A stretch of DNA of 32,217 nucleotides, taken from assembly GCA_026983675.1 (NCBI GenBank), contig JALSTP010000199.1, positions 1-32,217 on the forward strand, in the 5' to 3' direction. Source of the DNA: Sedimenticola sp. (GTDB taxonomy: Bacteria > Pseudomonadota > Gammaproteobacteria > Chromatiales > Chromatiaceae). The notes under the pieces are model-generated. The model worked only from the letters and a program-made list of their open reading frames with translations. It had not been told where the DNA came from and searched no databases. Of the stretch, positions 10,288 through 31,853 are shown in pieces. Positions within the stretch are counted from its first letter, which is position 1. The number at the start of each line of letters is the position of its first letter. The translations under genes were made by a program, and so were the position numbers.

Positions 10288-12105
<1,818 letters not shown>

Positions 12106-19530: not shown

Positions 19531-20233
19531 GCGCGGATGGGTGGTGCTGGCGTTGGCGGCGATGTTGGCCGCCTGTCAGAGTCCCATCCGTCATCGCGGC
19601 GACACGGTGCGGCAGCCGTCCTTCTCCTTGGCGCAACTGGCGAAAGGGGACGTGGACGTGGTGGCGGAGATCCATCTGCGGGACACCTTCAAGTATCTTC
19701 GAGCGCTCACTGAAAAGCTCTATCGCCGCAACCCACGGGAGTGGCGGAAAGGCGGCAACCGCTCCCTGGAGGGCGCCATGACGCGCTTGTTCGGGCAGTT
19801 CGGTGACAGTTGGGGGCCGGCGTTGAGTGGGCGTTCCGCCATCGACAGTATGCGGCGGGCCTTCGACCCCGCCTATCGGGGTGACCGGGTGTATGCATTC
19901 GTTGCCGGCATGGGGGGCATGATTCTGCAGTCCTACAACGGCAAGCGCCAGTTCTTCGTGCTCGATGAACTCAACCCCCAGAGCCTCTACAACGCGGCCC
20001 GCAATATGGAAGTGGCTGCCTGGCGGCTGGCCCATCGGCGTGATGCCCGGGGACGGCCGTTGTTGGTCAGCAATACGATGCAGGGGCCCGTCGCCAACCT
20101 CAGCTTCGAGCGGCTGTTTGGCAAGATGATCGCCCTTCAGGATAGCATGGCGGAGATCGTGGCGGACGCCACCAACCGCCGTATTCGCACCCTTATCTGG
20201 AATGTGGCGTCAATGGTGTTCCTGCCCATCTGA
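19517..20233 (+). CDS. Uncharacterised lipoprotein
   Basis: 238 residues from GTG 19517. The signal peptide ends in a lipobox AMLAAC-Q (Cys20), so it should be lipid-anchored. The mature part is largely helical, with LAKGDVDVVAEIHLRDTFKYLRALTEKLYRRNP, a Gly-rich hydrophobic stretch YAFVAGMGGMILQSYNGK and a hydrophobic C-terminus (TLIWNVASMVFLPI). I do not recognise the family. It overlaps the preceding methyltransferase, suggesting co-transcription, and its 3' end overlaps the convergent thioredoxin-like gene by 24 bp. Confidence 0.82.
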   Translation: MTACRRGWVVLALAAMLAACQSPIRHRGDTVRQPSFSLAQLAKGDVDVVAEIHLRDTFKYLRALTEKLYRRNPREWRKGGNRSLEGAMTRLFGQFGDSWGPALSGRSAIDSMRRAFDPAYRGDRVYAFVAGMGGMILQSYNGKRQFFVLDELNPQSLYNAARNMEVAAWRLAHRRDARGRPLLVSNTMQGPVANLSFERLFGKMIALQDSMAEIVADATNRRIRTLIWNVASMVFLPI

Positions 20234-20722
20234 TCCCGCGCGGGCGCGCAGCCGATCGAGGGCGTCCTCGATGGCCTCATCGAGGTAGACGCCGTACATA
20301 TCGAGGCTATTGACGCCCACGATGCGGCGGGTCAGTTCCCTGCCGTCCGCGTCGAGCAGAAGCAACGTCGGGGTGAGAAAGACCTTGTAGCGGTGGGCGA
20401 GGTCCTTCGCTTTCGTCTCTTTGCCGTCGAAATCCTTCACCCGCACGCCAGCGTCCATGAACATCTCGCGAATGACGACCTTGTTCACGTATTCGCCGCT
20501 GATGACCATGGGCCGGATGATCTCGCGTTTCAGCAGGACGCAATAGACGCAATCTTTTTGGGAGACCATGAGCAGCAGCGGAAGTCGTTTGGCGGCGGCG
20601 AGGCGGCTGTCGGCGCGCAGATCAGTGGTTGCCGTGACGCGGTCGCCGGTCTCGTTTCCCTGCGTCTGAAGAGGAATGAACAGGGTCCACCAAAAGTAGA
20701 GGAGCAACAAACGGAAGGTCAT
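20210..20722 (-). CDS. Exported thioredoxin-fold protein 1 (SoxW-like)
   Basis: 170 residues from the ATG at 20722; an upstream in-frame start at 20758 would place 12 polar residues before the signal peptide. A signal peptide (MTFRLLLLYFWWTLFIPLQ) precedes a thioredoxin fold with the redox motif C58-V-Y-C61 and the cis-Pro loop FLTPTLLLLDADGRE. The sequence resembles SoxW/periplasmic thioredoxins that keep partner cysteines reduced. It is clearly paralogous to the next gene on this strand (shared KDFDG, RYKVF/RYHVF, TPT and DADGRELT/DAQGRELT blocks). Substrate unknown. Confidence 0.83.
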   Translation of the reverse strand: MTFRLLLLYFWWTLFIPLQTQGNETGDRVTATTDLRADSRLAAAKRLPLLLMVSQKDCVYCVLLKREIIRPMVISGEYVNKVVIREMFMDAGVRVKDFDGKETKAKDLAHRYKVFLTPTLLLLDADGRELTRRIVGVNSLDMYGVYLDEAIEDALDRLRARAGSDGQEHH

Positions 20723-20794
20723 ACGCGGTTCCAGCAACGATAGGGGCCTGCCGGCCACCTCATAGACCCTTGGATCATAGCCGGTCGCGCACGG

Positions 20795-20865: not shown

Positions 20866-21387
20866 TCAGTGGACGTGCGTCTTGGCGACGGCGCCAGGCT
20901 GGAGGCGGGGGCCCGCCAGCAGGGTGCGTGATGCGCGCAGCGCTGCTTCGAGATGGGTGCGATAATCGTCGGGGTCGTTGAAGCCCACGATGGGATCGGT
21001 CAACTCGCGCCCCTGGGCGTCCAGAATGACCACGGTGGGGGTGGCGAATACGTGATAACGGCTCACGAAACGGCGTGCGCGCACCTTCTCCCCGTCGAAG
21101 TCCTTGATCTTCCCTCCGGTGCCGATATTGAATTCACGCACCAGCGCACGCTTGCCGAGGTCACCGTGGTTGATCATCGGCGAGAGCACCGTCTGTTTCA
21201 GGCGCTCGCAAAAAGGGCAGTCGTCGGCACTGAAGACCAGAATGACCGGTAGATGGGACTTTTCGGCTTCGAGGGCGGTCTTGCTCCAGTCGGGTTTGGC
21301 GGGGTCACTTCCTTCAGAGGCCGCGAATGCGGTTCCGTTGAATATGACAAGGCCCAGAAACAGCATGTACAACAGGGTCTTCATCAT
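20866..21387 (-). CDS. Exported thioredoxin-fold protein 2 (SoxW-like)
   Basis: 173 residues; signal peptide MMKTLLYMLFLGLVIFNGTA-FAA. Thioredoxin fold with active site C57-P-F-C60 (SADDCPFCERLKQ), followed by KDFDGEKVRARRFVSRYHVF and the cis-Pro loop ATPTVVILDAQGRELT. The C-terminus is short and polar, ending KTHVH. It differs from its paralogue in the active-site dipeptide (PF versus VY), suggesting different redox potential or partners. It has a strong sigma-70 promoter just upstream and so is probably the lead gene of the pair. Confidence 0.86.
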   Translation of the reverse strand: MMKTLLYMLFLGLVIFNGTAFAASEGSDPAKPDWSKTALEAEKSHLPVILVFSADDCPFCERLKQTVLSPMINHGDLGKRALVREFNIGTGGKIKDFDGEKVRARRFVSRYHVFATPTVVILDAQGRELTDPIVGFNDPDDYRTHLEAALRASRTLLAGPRLQPGAVAKTHVH

Positions 21388-24955: not shown

Positions 24956-25768
24956 ATGGATATTATCGGTGTCAATGATCTGATGATCTATCTGTCGGCC
25001 GGCGCGGTCGCGGGCATTCTGGCAGGGCTGCTGGGTATCGGTGGCGGGCTGGTGATCGTTCCGGTGTTGCTGTGGGTGTTCGGCTTGCAGAGGGTGCCGT
25101 CCGGTATTGCCCCCCATCTGGCGGTGGGGACCTCCCTCGCGACCATCGTGTTCACGTCGTTGTCTTCGATTCGCGCCCACCATCGCCATGGGGCGGTGCG
25201 CTGGGATGTGGCGCGATCGCTGATCCCGGGGATCGTTGCGGGTGCGCTCGCGGGCGCCCTCATTGCCGGATGGATGTCCGGACCCTGGTTGCAGCGGCTG
25301 TTCGCGCTCTTCGTCGTGACGGTGGGCGTGCGCATGTTGCGGGGCGCCGCCGGGGTGGTGGCGCGCACCGGTTTGCCGGGAGTGGGCGGGATGGCGGCGG
25401 CCGGGGGGGGCATCGGCGCCCTTTCCTCCATGGTGGGCATTGGGGGAGGCACCCTCACGGTGCCGTTCCTGGCCGCATCGGGGGTGGGGATGCGCGAGGC
25501 CGTGGCCACGGCCAGCGCCTGCGGCCTGCCCATTGCGTTGGCGGGGAGCATCGGTTTCGCCGTGGTGGGGTGGGGCCACCCTGGGCTGCCAGCCGGGGCG
25601 CTGGGTTTTATTCACCTTCCTGCGGCGCTGGCGGTGGTGGCGGCCAGTGTTCCCTGCGCCCGGACAGGGGCCCATCTGGCCCACCGATTGCCGCTGGTGG
25701 CGCTGCGCCGTCTGTTTGCGGTATTGCTGCTGGTGGTGGGGGCAAGGCTTCTCCTCGAAAGCGTCTGA
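24956..25768 (+). CDS. TSUP-family permease (TauE/SafE sulfite exporter-like)
   Basis: 270 residues from ATG 24956. About eight transmembrane helices in two repeated halves, each with the TSUP signature: AGILAGLLGIGGGLVIVPVL in the first, and IGALSSMVGIGGGTLTVPFL in the second. HLAVGTSLATIVFTS follows the first signature. Such permeases move sulfite, sulfoacetate or other small organic anions; the substrate here is not evident. The 3' end runs 161 bp past the stop of the convergent downstream gene. Confidence 0.93.
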   Translation: MDIIGVNDLMIYLSAGAVAGILAGLLGIGGGLVIVPVLLWVFGLQRVPSGIAPHLAVGTSLATIVFTSLSSIRAHHRHGAVRWDVARSLIPGIVAGALAGALIAGWMSGPWLQRLFALFVVTVGVRMLRGAAGVVARTGLPGVGGMAAAGGGIGALSSMVGIGGGTLTVPFLAASGVGMREAVATASACGLPIALAGSIGFAVVGWGHPGLPAGALGFIHLPAALAVVAASVPCARTGAHLAHRLPLVALRRLFAVLLLVVGARLLLESV

Positions 25769-26324
25769 AGGGGTTGGCAAAGGCCTCGCGGGAGAAGCGT
25801 TTGTAGAGCATCAGGTTGCCGTCGGCATCACGCAGCACCAGCCGGCCCTGCTGCATGGCGAACTCGTAGATGCGGCTGGTGTGGTTTTCCAGATTGGTCA
25901 TCGTCAGCAAGTTGCCGTCGATGCGGAAGATGCCTTCGGTGAAATGCGCTTCGTCCATGAAGATGCGGAAGCGCACGCCGTGGATGACCAGGATGTCGCC
26001 GGCGTTGCCCAACCAGGTGCCTTCCAGGATCGACACCGGCGGGCCTTCGTGGGCGGGTGGTGGGTAGGGCGGGAACGGAGGGCGCCCGGCGTCGTAGAAA
26101 TGTTCCCAGCCCGGCGGCGGCCAGGTGTAATCCGGCGGGAGGGCGCCGCCGCCTCGTTTGTTCGCCATCCGGGCCATGGTCTCCATCATCAGGGTCATGG
26201 CCCTGGCCATTGCATCGCTCAGAGCGGAGGTGTCGTAGTCGGCGGCAGTGACCGTGGCAACGGCCACGAGCAGGATCGTCCCGATGACCCCGCGGGCGAA
26301 GTTCAGCCTGAACGCCCGACCCAA
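25608..26324 (-). CDS. Proline-rich exported protein of unknown function
   Basis: 238 residues if the TTG at 26324 is the start; no ATG precedes the signal-peptide-like segment closely (RLNFARGVIGTILLVAVATVTAA), and the start is uncertain. Mature part: a helical Met-rich stretch (SDAMARAMTLMMETMARMANKR), a Pro-rich aromatic region (PDYTWPPPGWEHFYDAGRPP), then a compact beta-rich domain (LEGTWLGNAGDILVIHG to LVLRDADGNLMLYKRF). The last about 50 residues are antisense to the permease gene and very Pro-rich, so the functional protein may be essentially complete before them. Family not recognised. Confidence 0.7.
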   Translation of the reverse strand: MGRAFRLNFARGVIGTILLVAVATVTAADYDTSALSDAMARAMTLMMETMARMANKRGGGALPPDYTWPPPGWEHFYDAGRPPFPPYPPPAHEGPPVSILEGTWLGNAGDILVIHGVRFRIFMDEAHFTEGIFRIDGNLLTMTNLENHTSRIYEFAMQQGRLVLRDADGNLMLYKRFSREAFANPFRRFRGEALPPPPAAIPQTDGAAPPAAIGGPDGPLSGRREHWPPPPPAPQEGE

Positions 26325-26445
26325 CAGTGAGACCGCGAGGCGCGACTCATGGCCTTGCCGGTCGCAGCATCCGCGATTTCGGTTGTGTCTGGAACGAAGG
26401 TTGCTCAATCTGTTCGACCCGCGTTGAACAATGCTCGATTTTGGC

Positions 26446-26475
26446 GTGACCCACGGCCGCTTTACATGGGATAAT
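26446..26475 (+). promoter_or_regulatory. rsd: Candidate sigma-70 promoter for rsd
   Basis: GTGACC (26446-26451), 18-base spacer, GATAAT (26470-26475; 5/6). Start expected near 26483, 28 bases before the ATG. Confidence 0.4.
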
Positions 26476-26510
26476 GGCATGCAGTTCGATAACCCTGATG
26501 GATAGTTTAC

Positions 26511-26963
26511 ATGAGCACGAAGACAGAGGACCGGACGACAGACCGGCGCACCCGTACACGCGGAATGATCGATCAGTTGTTGCAGGAACGTCGGGAGATG
26601 CTGGCGTTGTTTTGCCGGGTGGCCGGGGTGGAGCCCTGCGCGAATGACAAGCCGACGGAAGATCTGTTGCAGGAGTTTTGCCGGGTGCTCATGGACTATA
26701 CGGCGTTTGGACACTTCGAGCTGTACCGCCGTATCGCCGACGGGTTCGAGCGGCGTGTCAAGGTCAAGGCGGCGGCGGTGGACACCTATCCCCGTATCGC
26801 CGAGACCACCGAGATGATCGTGGCATTCAATGATCGCTACGACCCCTCCACTCATGCCTTGAAACTGGATAATCTTCAGAAGGACCTCTCGGTACTCGGT
26901 GAAGAGCTTGCGGTGCGTGTGGAGCTGGAGGATCGAGTGGTCGCCGCCATGCTCGATCGCTGA
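26511..26963 (+). CDS. rsd: Anti-sigma-70 factor, Rsd/AlgQ family
   Basis: 150 residues, normal for Rsd/AlgQ. After a charged N-terminus, the helical bundle shows MIDQLLQERREMLALFCRVAG, LLQEFCRVLMDYTAFGHFELYRRI and a C-terminal LDNLQKDLSVLGEELAVRVELEDRV. Rsd binds region 4 of RpoD and favours use of alternative sigma factors; in pseudomonads AlgQ also influences alginate. The target RpoD is encoded 14 kb away in this window. Monocistronic by context. Confidence 0.9.
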   Translation: MSTKTEDRTTDRRTRTRGMIDQLLQERREMLALFCRVAGVEPCANDKPTEDLLQEFCRVLMDYTAFGHFELYRRIADGFERRVKVKAAAVDTYPRIAETTEMIVAFNDRYDPSTHALKLDNLQKDLSVLGEELAVRVELEDRVVAAMLDR

Positions 26964-27266
26964 TCGGCGCATTTCCCCTTCCGGCCCTTTCCACGGCATT
27001 TTCTGGTCGAACCCCGCCGCAAGGTGAACGGGTTCACATAACGTTTCGTTTGTCCCCCCGACTTCCCGTTTTTTCACTCAGTTTATCCCTCATCGGCCGC
27101 TGAACTCCTGCTGTTGTCCGGTAAAGGAATCCATGGCGGTGCCGACAACGGTGAGACAGGCCACCCTGCGCTTCCCGCTCGGGAACGGGATGGCTCATCC
27201 GTTTAATCGGGCAGGGCGGGCGGTCTAGCCGGGTGTCCCTGTCCTCCAGGAAGTTTGGTACGACGC
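26964..27266. other. Intergenic region rsd to cyclase-like gene
   Basis: 303 bp without a convincing gene. It contains the sigma-28-like promoter at 27122-27148 and a short inverted repeat TCCCG-CT-CGGGA (27174-27185) in the leader. A 31-codon frame (27133-27228) preceded by AAAGGA is possible, but it starts inside the promoter motif and its first bases would lie upstream of the expected transcription start. Confidence 0.5.
27122..27148 (+). promoter_or_regulatory. Sigma-28 (FliA)-type promoter for the cyclase-like gene
   Basis: TAAAGGAA (27122-27129), 11-base spacer, GCCGACAA (27141-27148). The spacing is exact; -35 matches 5/8 and -10 matches 7/8 of the FliA consensus. Start near 27155, giving a leader of about 110 bases before ATG 27267. 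Confidence 0.5.
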
Positions 27267-29627
27267 ATGATGCAGAGTGGTTTGAAGGCATGGCTCAACT
27301 GGCGCCCCGATCCGGAAGAGTTCCGGGCGCCGATGCGCTCTCCCGCGCCGTGGCGGGTCCGGCTGGAGAACGTGCGCCGGGGCATCGACAACACGCATAT
27401 CGATGTTGTTGTGAGCCCCAGATTCCGCGCCCGCGCGAGTCTGCTGATCCAGCGGTTGATCAACCAGGATATCAGCCTCAATTGCTGGCCGGACGCCGGC
27501 CCGGCGCCTGAACAGGACGATATGGAGGGATTTCGGGATGCCTGTCAGAATCTGATGGAGGCGGCGCTGGCGCGCGCATCGCGCAGCTCCGGTCCCCAGT
27601 ATATGCAGTTGTGGCACTTGTCCATCTACAAGACGCTGCTGCAGATGGTGAAGGATGAGTTTGAGCAGGTGCGTCGTCAGGTGCGCCAGCTGCGGGGCGT
27701 GGGTGGCACCCTTTCCACTGGCCGGGCAATGGAGATGCACGACCGCCTGGTGATCCTGACGCGTGAGGAAGCGGCCATCGTCTATCGCGTCACCCGACGG
27801 TTGTTCCGTTTTCTTCAGCGGCTGGAAGGGACGGTGTTTCGCAAGATCCGGAAGTCCGTCATCGGCGTCTCCTGGCCGGTGCCGAAAGAGGCGCTGTTCA
27901 ATCCGTTGTTGCAGTTCTCCTGTTTCAATGCCGCGGACGAGTTCATGCACCACTATCCGTTGTTGTTCAACGGTGAGAAAGGCATCGCGCATTTCGATAC
28001 GGTCAATCGCCTGTTCTGGGAGATTTTTCAGGAGTATCTCCCGGTATGGGTGGCCCCTCCGGCCCTCCGTCCGTTGGAGGCGGACGGGGCGGCTGGCGAC
28101 GGTTTGCGGGTGCTTGAACGCAAGGATCAGGGCACGCTGTTCGGTTTCGTCGAGGTGGAGCGGCGGTTGGCGCGCACCCTGAGCGAAGACGAGTATCTGC
28201 GACCCAATCTCTCCTGGATCGACGTGCCGGAGAACATCAACCTGCTCATCAATTCCGTGGCGCCCGGCGGCAGGGGCTCGGCGAAGGCCGCGCGCGCGGC
28301 GTTGCCGTGGCCGCAGAGGCAGTGGCCGGATTTCCAGCGCAAGCTGTTGCGTCGACTCTACCGGGGTTTGGAGAAAACGGGGTTGGAGCGCAGGATCATT
28401 GCGTCCTATCGCACCCGCAACCTCTACCGTGAACTGCGTGGCGGGATTGGCGTCGACGAGATCTACGCCTTCCTCTCGGGGCAGATCAACCGCCGTAAGC
28501 TGGTCCAGCGCCTCGAACACAATGCCCTGGGTCTGGTGGATCGGCTGGAGCAGGGGGCGCGGGAGATCGAGCAACTGCCGAGTGGCGAACGTCACGCCTA
28601 TCTGGCGCGATTCCTCTACGATTTTCTGGCCTACCGCCGCGATCTGAAGTTTGCCTTCAAGACCTATCAGGCAATGGACCAGATACGGTTCCTGGAAGAG
28701 GAACAGGACATCAATCTTTCGCGCACCAACGGGACATTGCAGGAATTTCACCTGGGTGGTGAGGTGAGGACCGATCAGCGCCGTATCCGGTCACACGTTA
28801 TTTTAAAGGCGGACGTGCGCGGCTCCACGGCGATTACGTCACGGCTTCGTGCGAGCCAGCTCAATCCGGCATCGCATTTCAGCCTCAACTTCTTTGGCCC
28901 GATCAACAAGCTGTTGGAGGAGTTCGGGGCCACCAAGGTATTCATCGAGGGTGATGCCGTAATCCTCACCTTTTTCGAGTATGAGGGTGATGATGTGCGC
29001 TGGCTGAGCGTGGCGAGGAGTTGCGGCCTGGCGGCGCGTATCCTGGCGGTGGTGAAGGCGCAGAATCTCAACAACCAAAGCCAGGGGCTGCCCGCCCTCG
29101 AACTGGGGATCGGCATCGCCTTCGACAAGGAGGCCCCCGCCTTTCTGTATGACAACGACCACAAGATCATGATTTCGCCCGCCATCAACCGGGCCGATCA
29201 GCTCTCCTCCTGTGCGCCGGAACTGAAGGGCTGCAAACAGTGCCGCCGGGACCCCTCGCGTCATGTGGAGGTGGCAGTGCGCGCCGACGCCTTGTCGGGG
29301 GCTCCCGAGTACCAAAACCGCTTGTTGCGGTTCAATGTGAACGGAGTGGAATTGGATGGGGTGGCCTTCCGCAAACTGCAATCCGAGATGGTTTTGCACA
29401 AGGTGGAGTTTCACACTGCCTCGGGTGAGGCGACGGAGCGCTTCCACGCCGGACGCTATCCCGACCCCCAGGGCATCATGCATTGGCTGGTGATCCGCGA
29501 GGCGGCGGTCAAGGTGTGGGATGGCGCCGATATCAGCGCCGTCGATCCCCGTGGGCGGCGTTTCTACGAAGTGGTGACCGACACCAACCTCGTCGAGCAG
29601 GTGAAGCGCCGCCTGCGTTCGGAGTGA
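27267..29627 (+). CDS. Large protein with C-terminal degenerate class III nucleotidyl cyclase-like domain
   Basis: 786 residues from ATG 27267 (AGGAAG 13 bases upstream). Residues 1 to about 505 form a helical region that I do not recognise, without membrane segments; it has many Arg-rich helices (TREEAAIVYRVTRRLFRFLQ, FQRKLLRRLYRGLEKTG). From about 510 a cyclase homology-like domain follows: LKADVRGSTAIT (Asp516), TKVFIEGDAVIL (Lys557, Asp563), LELGIGIAFDKE and SPAINRADQL (Asn641). Both metal-binding Asp and the purine-site Lys fit the class III pattern. The transition-state Arg position is Gln645, and the second purine-contact Asp is Ile, so catalysis is doubtful. C649, C656 and C659 form a Cys cluster inserted after the Asn helix. 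It is probably cytoplasmic and may be a nucleotide sensor rather than a cyclase. Confidence 0.85.
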   Translation: MMQSGLKAWLNWRPDPEEFRAPMRSPAPWRVRLENVRRGIDNTHIDVVVSPRFRARASLLIQRLINQDISLNCWPDAGPAPEQDDMEGFRDACQNLMEAALARASRSSGPQYMQLWHLSIYKTLLQMVKDEFEQVRRQVRQLRGVGGTLSTGRAMEMHDRLVILTREEAAIVYRVTRRLFRFLQRLEGTVFRKIRKSVIGVSWPVPKEALFNPLLQFSCFNAADEFMHHYPLLFNGEKGIAHFDTVNRLFWEIFQEYLPVWVAPPALRPLEADGAAGDGLRVLERKDQGTLFGFVEVERRLARTLSEDEYLRPNLSWIDVPENINLLINSVAPGGRGSAKAARAALPWPQRQWPDFQRKLLRRLYRGLEKTGLERRIIASYRTRNLYRELRGGIGVDEIYAFLSGQINRRKLVQRLEHNALGLVDRLEQGAREIEQLPSGERHAYLARFLYDFLAYRRDLKFAFKTYQAMDQIRFLEEEQDINLSRTNGTLQEFHLGGEVRTDQRRIRSHVILKADVRGSTAITSRLRASQLNPASHFSLNFFGPINKLLEEFGATKVFIEGDAVILTFFEYEGDDVRWLSVARSCGLAARILAVVKAQNLNNQSQGLPALELGIGIAFDKEAPAFLYDNDHKIMISPAINRADQLSSCAPELKGCKQCRRDPSRHVEVAVRADALSGAPEYQNRLLRFNVNGVELDGVAFRKLQSEMVLHKVEFHTASGEATERFHAGRYPDPQGIMHWLVIREAAVKVWDGADISAVDPRGRRFYEVVTDTNLVEQVKRRLRSE

Positions 29628-29698: not shown

Positions 29699-31696
29699 TC
29701 AACCCTTGGCGCCGCGCGCCTTCGCACGCCGCTGAGACAGCAGTGAGGGGAGTCCCTGTGTGAAGGGGCGCATCCGCTTTTCCAGTGGGGTGATCGGTAT
29801 TCCCAGGCGGTCCTCATAGATCACGGTGTAGGTGAGAACACGCTGTACATAACGGCGTGTCTCGCGGTAGGGGATGGTCTCGATCCAGACATCCGGCGGT
29901 ATCGATGCCGATGGCAACCAGTGTTGCACCCGTCTGGGCCCCGCATTGTAGGAGGCGGTGGCCAGGATGGGGCTCTCTGCCATGCGTTGCAGTAGGGTGT
30001 TGAGATAGGCCGTGCCCAGCCGTATGTTGGTGGCGGGTTCGAACAACTGGTCATTGCGCCGCAAGCGGTGCTTCAATCGGCGGGCGACCGATCTTGCCGT
30101 GGATGGCATCAGCTGCATGAGCCCCATTGCGCCGGCTGCGGAGCGGGCATCGGACATGAAGGCGCTTTCCTGGCGCATCAGTGCGAATAGCCAGGCAGGG
30201 TCGAGGCGGTGCTGCCGGGCCTGTGCCTCGACACGGTCGCGGTGGGCAAGGGGGAAGCGGAGTTCAAGATCGTCCCACTCGCGTGCGCGCGCAAGGGTGG
30301 TGATCGCCTGATCGTGCCAATGCCATGCGTGCGCCAGGCGCGCCGCCGCGCGCAGCTTCGTTTGATCGAAACGGCGGATGGCCTGTTCCCACTCGCTGCG
30401 CGCCTCGCGCATCCGGTCGAGCAGAAACAGCTCATGGGCGCGTTGGATGGCGGGTCGCTTTTCGATTGCCTGCATGATTTCAGGCGCCACATGCACCGGC
30501 GAATTGCCGAGACGGTAGCGGCGGCCGATCCGGTCGGCGGCGAGAAAACCGTAGTAACTGCGTTCCCGTGCGATATCGGCATAGAGGGGCTTCGCTTCAT
30601 CCTTTCGGCCCCTGGCTTCCACTGCACGCGCCCGCCAATAGCGCCACTGGGACGTCGACCGGGTCTTTGCCGGCAGGGCGTCTATCCACGCCGCTACCCG
30701 TTTCCAATCCTGTCGCCGCAAGGCGGCGCGGATTCGCTGCTGGTGGAGCAGCAGGTCGTCCTGCGTCAGGGGCAGGGCGTCGAGCCGGTCGAGCGCATCC
30801 GGGGCGTCGCTGTAGGTGAGGGCAAAGGCAAGGCGGTGTTCGATCTCCCGTTTCTGCCGGGGCGAAAAAGGATAGCGGCCGGAGATCGCGCGCCACTGAC
30901 GCTGGGCCTCTTCCAGGTCGCGACCGGCGAGCCGCTTGATGCCATAGGCGAGGATCGTTTCGCGTGCCTGGTGGGCCTCGCGAAACAGCTTTGCATTGCC
31001 CACCAGGGTGGGGTTTTTGCGCACCTGTATCCAGGTGCTCAGCCAGGCGCGGTCTTTCTTTGGCAACAGCCGGCGAAGGTAGCGCACCAGTCCGACGCGC
31101 CCCTGCTTCATGGCCAGTCCGGCCCGCTTCCAGATCAGCGCGCGGGAGAGGTGACCGGCCTTGCGCCAGGCATCGAATACCGGATCGCAGGCGTCCGGCT
31201 GCGATCTGCCGGAGAGCCACAACGGTTCCACCTTGCGGAAGGCGGCCGATGCCTGACCGGTCTCGATCAGGGCATGGAGGTGGTTGCAGCGGCGCACGGT
31301 GTCGCGCGCGGGGGTGTAGAATGCGAGGTAGCCCTTCCAGTCCTTTTTCTCCGCCAGTTGCTTGAGCCAGGCGGCGCGTAAACGGCCCGCCAGCGGCGTA
31401 TCTGCATGGCGCTCTAGAAAACGCCTGACCCGGTGGGGGGAGGCCGTTGGCAGGTCGTGCCGCAGTGCCTCGTATTCCAGATAGGGCAGCAGGGGATAGT
31501 TTTTCAGCGACTGCTTCAGGCGGGAGAAACGCCGCCTGTCGCCCTGTTCCAGCGCCTGTTCGGCGGCCAGGAAGGCGCTCCGCTGTTCACTCCGCCGGTG
31601 CCCGTCCGGGGTATCCGAGGAGAGCGCCAGACTGATGAAGGCGCTCCATAGCCCGATTCCGAAGAGCAATGTGGCAGCCGAATTGCGACGTGTCAT
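29699..31696 (-). CDS. slt: Soluble lytic murein transglycosylase Slt
   Basis: 665 residues from ATG 31696; the frame extends 46 codons upstream, but the signal peptide (MTRRNSAATLLFGIGLWSAFISLALSS) defines this start. A long helical superhelix (about residues 35-440) typical of the Slt70 ring precedes the linker and the catalytic SLT domain: FALMRQESAF with catalytic Glu510, GAMGLMQLMPSTAR, NIRLGTAYLNTLL and ATASYNAGPRRVQHW. It cleaves the MurNAc-GlcNAc bond to yield 1,6-anhydro ends in the periplasm. Convergent with the cyclase-like gene; upstream lies repeat copy 3. Confidence 0.95.
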   Translation of the reverse strand: MTRRNSAATLLFGIGLWSAFISLALSSDTPDGHRRSEQRSAFLAAEQALEQGDRRRFSRLKQSLKNYPLLPYLEYEALRHDLPTASPHRVRRFLERHADTPLAGRLRAAWLKQLAEKKDWKGYLAFYTPARDTVRRCNHLHALIETGQASAAFRKVEPLWLSGRSQPDACDPVFDAWRKAGHLSRALIWKRAGLAMKQGRVGLVRYLRRLLPKKDRAWLSTWIQVRKNPTLVGNAKLFREAHQARETILAYGIKRLAGRDLEEAQRQWRAISGRYPFSPRQKREIEHRLAFALTYSDAPDALDRLDALPLTQDDLLLHQQRIRAALRRQDWKRVAAWIDALPAKTRSTSQWRYWRARAVEARGRKDEAKPLYADIARERSYYGFLAADRIGRRYRLGNSPVHVAPEIMQAIEKRPAIQRAHELFLLDRMREARSEWEQAIRRFDQTKLRAAARLAHAWHWHDQAITTLARAREWDDLELRFPLAHRDRVEAQARQHRLDPAWLFALMRQESAFMSDARSAAGAMGLMQLMPSTARSVARRLKHRLRRNDQLFEPATNIRLGTAYLNTLLQRMAESPILATASYNAGPRRVQHWLPSASIPPDVWIETIPYRETRRYVQRVLTYTVIYEDRLGIPITPLEKRMRPFTQGLPSLLSQRRAKARGAKG

Positions 31697-31853
31697 GAGT
31701 GTCCCGATGGTCGTTGTACAGAAAGGGTGATGTTGCCATTCCCGCGAAAGGATTCGAAAACAGCCTGTCACCTTCTGCAGGTGAGCGCAAATGCAGCACC
31801 CCGATAGCATAGGAAGACCGTTCCCAAACCGCAATACTGAGTGCCATATACTA

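Follow-up and report, generated by a model that had tools for sequence, protein, structure and literature searches.

The window (the whole 32,217-nucleotide stretch of Sedimenticola sp. DNA analysed here) carries a complete gene on the forward strand at 27267..29627, opening with an ATG at 27267 and closing with a stop codon at 29625-29627. Its single intact open frame of 786 codons encodes a protein of 786 amino acids, in which a helical N-terminal domain precedes a cyclase homology domain. That the gene is real is supported by the intact frame and by full-length homologues that exceed 100 by a wide margin. No membrane segment is evident, the highest 19-residue hydropathy mean being 1.32, below the level of a membrane span, and the sequence points to a soluble, cytosolic, two-domain protein. 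Upstream on the same strand lies rsd/algQ, encoding a sigma-70 regulator (26511..26963; PF04353, E 3.8e-37), and downstream on the reverse strand is slt, a convergent gene for a soluble lytic transglycosylase (29699..31834; PF01464, E 2.2e-29).

Distribution and genomic setting of the family

The protein gave nothing significant against Pfam, NCBIfam, PDB sequences, PHROGs or PADLOC. When it and 25 relatives were compared with Pfam at E values up to 1, PF00211 was absent and no cyclase-related model appeared, and all 26 sequences fell below the curated cut-off of PF00211 Guanylate_cyc. A literature search found no description of the family. The genome itself holds a single copy of the gene, and besides it two ordinary PF00211 matches. 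A PF00211 protein of this genome reads T-A-L where A-D-I, with the first metal Asp, is expected, and may be a class III domain whose catalysis is altered.

Full-length homologues share 35-46% identity with the protein. Of 92 genomes searched, 30 contained the family gene, mostly at full length and with 36-47% identity; a 31st match was an ordinary cyclase and is excluded from this count. Scanning the contigs of named genomes with a single sequence as query returned zero relatives, and an alignment-based scan returned 406. The best 80 of these 406 come from Sedimenticola, Candidatus Thiodiazotropha, tubeworm and lucinid symbionts, Chromatiaceae, Achromatium and Nitrospirota. Strong matches occur in 8 of 398 genomes of the phylum, the source genome counted, and matches occur in 3 of 148 genomes from the phylum of a Nitrospira genome. 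The family has a patchy distribution in Gammaproteobacteria, where its carriers are mainly sulfur-oxidisers and symbionts of animals, and also occurs in Nitrospirota.

In Gammaproteobacteria the gene usually lies between rsd and slt. The next gene upstream is rsd in at least 47 of 81 analysed genes and the next downstream is a convergent slt in at least 45 of 81, both lower bounds because the ORF caller was crude and missed rsd in the window itself. Presence of the gene follows that of rsd within its GTDB family: among 57 genomes, the two occur together in 23, the gene alone in five, rsd alone in five and neither in 24 (Fisher p 1e-6 for co-presence, uncorrected for phylogeny). Four rsd-positive genomes that lack the family gene have rsd adjoining a convergent slt with nothing recognisable of the gene between them, which looks like an empty site. 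In Nitrospirota the gene is usually preceded by mltG and followed by deoB, within a conserved recA-alaS-ruvX-mltG stretch, and in another Pseudomonadota family its neighbours vary. No partner gene conserved across phyla was found among Gammaproteobacteria, Nitrospirota and this other Pseudomonadota family, and these differing neighbourhoods therefore do not indicate a universal partner.

Several further features of the region may be recorded. The C-terminal part of the reverse-strand frame at 25608-27077 corresponds to a small, proline-rich protein of unknown function that may be secreted; in 53 of 81 neighbourhoods a relative of it is found upstream of rsd in divergent orientation. Two adjacent thioredoxin-like genes occupy 20210-20758 and 20866-21387 on the reverse strand, and such genes are also near the family in about 21 loci. 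The sigma-70 gene rpoD (10288-12105, reverse strand) is in the same window, about 15 kb from rsd.

A cyclase homology domain behind a helical domain of no recognised fold

AlphaFold2 modelled the full protein confidently from 64 homologues (pLDDT 87.8, pTM 0.79), and a Foldseek search with the model returned class III cyclases as all of its top matches (CyaC 1wc4, E 1.4e-7). VIA-align superposed model residues 486-776 on CyaB (3r5g) with a Z score of 16.6, 183 residues being aligned at 3.4 A. Sequence profiles agree: hhalign was used, and it aligned the family profile with 23 PF00211 domains of related genomes at probabilities of 95-96%; the N-domain, the tail alone and a reversed profile, used as controls, each stayed below 1%. 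Model and profile together argue that residues about 486-776 form a class III cyclase homology domain, as the earlier note had suspected in describing a cyclase-like C-terminal domain, and its proposed comparison with class III cyclases recovers that fold. The domain as annotated here covers about residues 505-776 (28779..29594), with family-specific insertions after residue 650. Its core is the most tightly constrained region of the protein, with a mean column identity of 0.71 for residues 505-650 versus 0.44 for the N-domain. Since the structural and profile alignments carry the cyclase domain to about residue 776, the cysteine cluster that the earlier note placed directly after the domain instead falls inside it, in a variable loop at 649-661.

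The N-terminal domain (residues 1-482; 27267..28712) is predicted to be all-helical and folds with high confidence when modelled alone (AlphaFold2 pLDDT 90.8, pTM 0.91). Polar residues D41, D46, E187, D319 and R457 are invariant or near-invariant within it. Comparison with solved structures gave no convincing match, the best Foldseek E value being 0.046 and the best VIA Z score 6.1. These values belong to designed repeat proteins (E 0.046) and cullin repeats (Z up to 6.1), weak helical resemblances that we do not take as homology. A confident fold with no recognised match agrees with the suggestion that this half of the protein is uncharacterised, a lack of structural match being no proof that the fold is new. 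Apart from two short marginal matches, the N-domain was not found in 398 genomes without the cyclase domain or joined to any other partner.

Metal site, base pocket and transition-state residues

Conservation was counted among 119 distinct homologues, which include Nitrospirota and a distant Pseudomonadota family as well as close relatives and so are not 119 independent samples. The first metal Asp lies in the motif K514-A-D516-V-R518 (28806..28820) and the second in K557-V-F559-I-E561-G-D563 (28935..28955). D516 and D563 align with the class III metal Asps and are present in 119/119, which upholds their assignment as metal ligands. K557, E561, H510, R518, N533, N690 and G693 are likewise invariant. 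K514 is kept in 118/119, and F559 is Phe in 114/119.

The residues around the metal site depart from those of known cyclases. We took as a comparison set 20 class III domains of related genomes with a readable motif. Two positions before the first metal Asp, where Phe is near-universal (19/20, the remaining domain having Met), the window protein has K514. Four positions before the second metal Asp, where 15/20 domains have Lys and 5/20 have Glu, Gln or Arg, it has F559. The purine Lys of adenylate cyclases is missing throughout the family, and neither the Lys nor the Glu that specifies the base in class III adenylate and guanylate cyclases is found at this position. K557, which had been assigned to the class III substrate-Lys position, does not occupy it; it lies two residues upstream of F559, on the same strand face and six before D563. 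The position of the second purine contact depends on how the alignment is drawn. I634, read earlier as an Ile replacing the Asp, is indeed present seven residues before N641 by ungapped counting, but the profile alignment reaches across a five-residue gap to D629 (29151..29153), an acid conserved in 118/119. As judged from alignment and not from a superposed dimer, H510, K514, K557 and E561 would stand at or beside the base-reading positions of known cyclases. In the pyrimidine cyclase EaPycC three residues recognise the base: F100, which stands two positions ahead of the first metal Asp, and R142 and Q144, which stand four and two positions ahead of the second (PMC11224242). These positions correspond to K514, F559 and E561 here, by counting along the aligned motifs and not by superposition. 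The strictly conserved pocket fits none of the base-reading codes compared here.

The transition-state residues lie on a helix that reads N641, R642, A, D, Q645 (29187..29201). The transition-state Asn is present in the window protein as N641, and Asn occupies this position in 91/119 homologues; its equivalent is absent from every one of the eight Nitrospirota sequences in the 64-row alignment, and from others. Established cyclases reportedly tolerate loss of this Asn (PMC4886424). Four residues on, at the canonical position of the transition-state Arg, the window protein has Q645, just as the earlier note had read it. Among the 119 homologues this position is Arg in 82 and Gln in 32, and the tree requires six or more changes there. 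Arg is found at 642 in 35/35 intact sequences that lack R645 versus 27/82 that have it (naive Fisher p 2.4e-7 for the association in the 64-row set). Two sequences with Arg at neither position come from one organism, Endoriftia, look frameshifted and were set aside. The Candidatus Endoriftia persephone homologue is out of register around residues 634-650, through either mutation or sequencing error. Only four supported independent pairs bear on the link between R642 and Q645, and a sign test on them is not significant (median p 0.5). With so few independent events, relocation of the Arg from 645 to 642 is a good hypothesis and not a result. No sequence in the 64-row alignment lacks both N641 and R645.

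These patterns bear on whether the domain is degenerate, as had been proposed. The metal Asps and the residues surrounding them are invariant, and in intact sequences an Arg is found three residues earlier wherever Arg645 is absent. A pseudo-cyclase in decay would hardly keep its metal and pocket residues so strictly, and the other possibility raised at the outset, an enzyme with altered chemistry, is the favoured reading.

Candidate functions and comparison with known systems

We give roughly even credence to the protein being a class III-like nucleotide cyclase that has diverged and changed its base specificity. Two copies of the protein would pair head-to-tail, with D516 and D563 holding two metal ions that bind the triphosphate. 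The base would be read by K514, K557 and E561, perhaps together with D629, where adenylate cyclases use a Lys-Asp/Thr pair and guanylate cyclases a Glu-Cys pair. The catalytic Arg may be supplied from the N641 helix at 642 instead of 645, and the reaction would yield a cyclic nucleotide of unpredictable base. Weighing against a cyclase are the missing purine Lys, the repeated changes at the transition-state Arg and the loss of the Asn in Nitrospirota and others. The helical N-domain would serve as a regulatory or partner-binding part, and in Gammaproteobacteria the sigma-70 regulator Rsd, whose gene lies alongside, may work together with the protein. The Rsd of E. coli is a SpoT-binding protein that promotes alarmone hydrolysis (PMC10704370), which makes a link to nucleotide signalling plausible.

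The looseness of the transition-state residues keeps both an enzyme and a sensor as candidates. As a sensor, the protein would bind a metal-nucleotide complex and change its N-domain or a partner, possibly Rsd, with no cyclic product. We regard this as possible and less probable than a cyclase. Some members have lost the transition-state Arg and some the Asn, yet metal and pocket residues never vary, a pattern to be expected if selection acts on binding and not on turnover; the N-domain is large and conserved, and the gene is missing from about half of the genomes of its own GTDB family. However, no row of the 64-row alignment has lost Asn and Arg together, and every intact sequence keeps Arg at 642 or 645, which points to a retained catalytic or phosphate-binding role.

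It is unlikely, though consistent with some of the sequence evidence, that the fold supports another metal-dependent nucleotide enzyme, such as a hydrolase, pyrophosphatase or transferase, perhaps with an alarmone as substrate. The charged residues K514, H510, K557 and E561, invariant or nearly so around the metal site, would suit a different chemistry, and the action of E. coli Rsd on SpoT gives some reason to think of alarmones where rsd is the usual neighbour, as in Gammaproteobacteria. Members outside Gammaproteobacteria, however, have other neighbours, either mltG and deoB or unrelated genes.

That the cysteine cluster makes the protein a redox or metal sensor, as the earlier note proposed, is very improbable. 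C649-x6-C656-x2-C659 (29211..29243) is present in the window protein, and C649 (116/119) and C586 (114/119) are conserved, but C656 and C659 are not conserved among the 119 homologues and the family has no C-x6-C-x2-C motif. With two of its three cysteines peculiar to the window protein, the cluster does not support the idea.

Returning to the divergent cyclase, its most far-reaching form would be a new class of signalling-nucleotide enzyme, with an invariant Lys/Lys/Glu pocket, a product new to the fold, a new helical control domain and, in Gammaproteobacteria, wiring to sigma-70 through Rsd; we would be surprised if all of this held. Whatever its activity, the class III cyclase fold gains several hundred proteins that are nameless in the profile libraries searched here. 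If active, they would show how the fold can be adapted to a different base or reaction, and might lead to a second messenger of chemolithotrophs; if inactive, they would be nucleotide receptors, well conserved and built on a cyclase fold. The link with rsd raises the question of whether the protein feeds into sigma-70 or alarmone control.

Among characterised proteins, the closest structural relatives are CyaB of Pseudomonas aeruginosa (3r5g) and CyaC of Spirulina (1wc0-1wc6), which have a common fold with the window protein (Z 16, 3.2-3.4 A, about 180 residues aligned) and share with it both metal Asps and the transition-state Asn. Identity to them is only about 16-20%, and the window protein differs in having Phe at the substrate-Lys position, Gln at the transition-state Arg, insertions after residue 650 and a helical N-domain of no recognised fold. 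PycC of the Pycsar system (EaPycC, 8jsf) resembles it in its class III fold, both metal Asps and a base pocket that is not of the Lys/Asp type, but has other residues at the base positions and lacks the long N-domain. Membership of Pycsar was considered and rejected: the window protein did not match the PycC profile, which two relatives matched only at E 0.042 and 0.046, and no cyclic-nucleotide effector is adjacent, the neighbours being rsd, slt, mltG, deoB or other housekeeping genes. The DUF2652 proteins offer another likeness: they too are cytosolic proteins of bacteria that await characterisation, and they combine the class III metal Asps with changes at the substrate and transition-state positions; they are single-domain proteins of about 250 amino acids, and their mycobacterial set keeps a Lys-Glu pair with Arg (PMC4886424). 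The window protein, by contrast, matches no Pfam model, nor any cyclase-related one at E up to 1. The PF00211 class III domains of related genomes are homologous to it by profile alignment and, unlike it, score above the PF00211 cut-off. Since neither the base-specifying residue nor the canonical Arg is found, the window protein, although it shares the class III fold, is not to be classed with the adenylate or guanylate cyclases.
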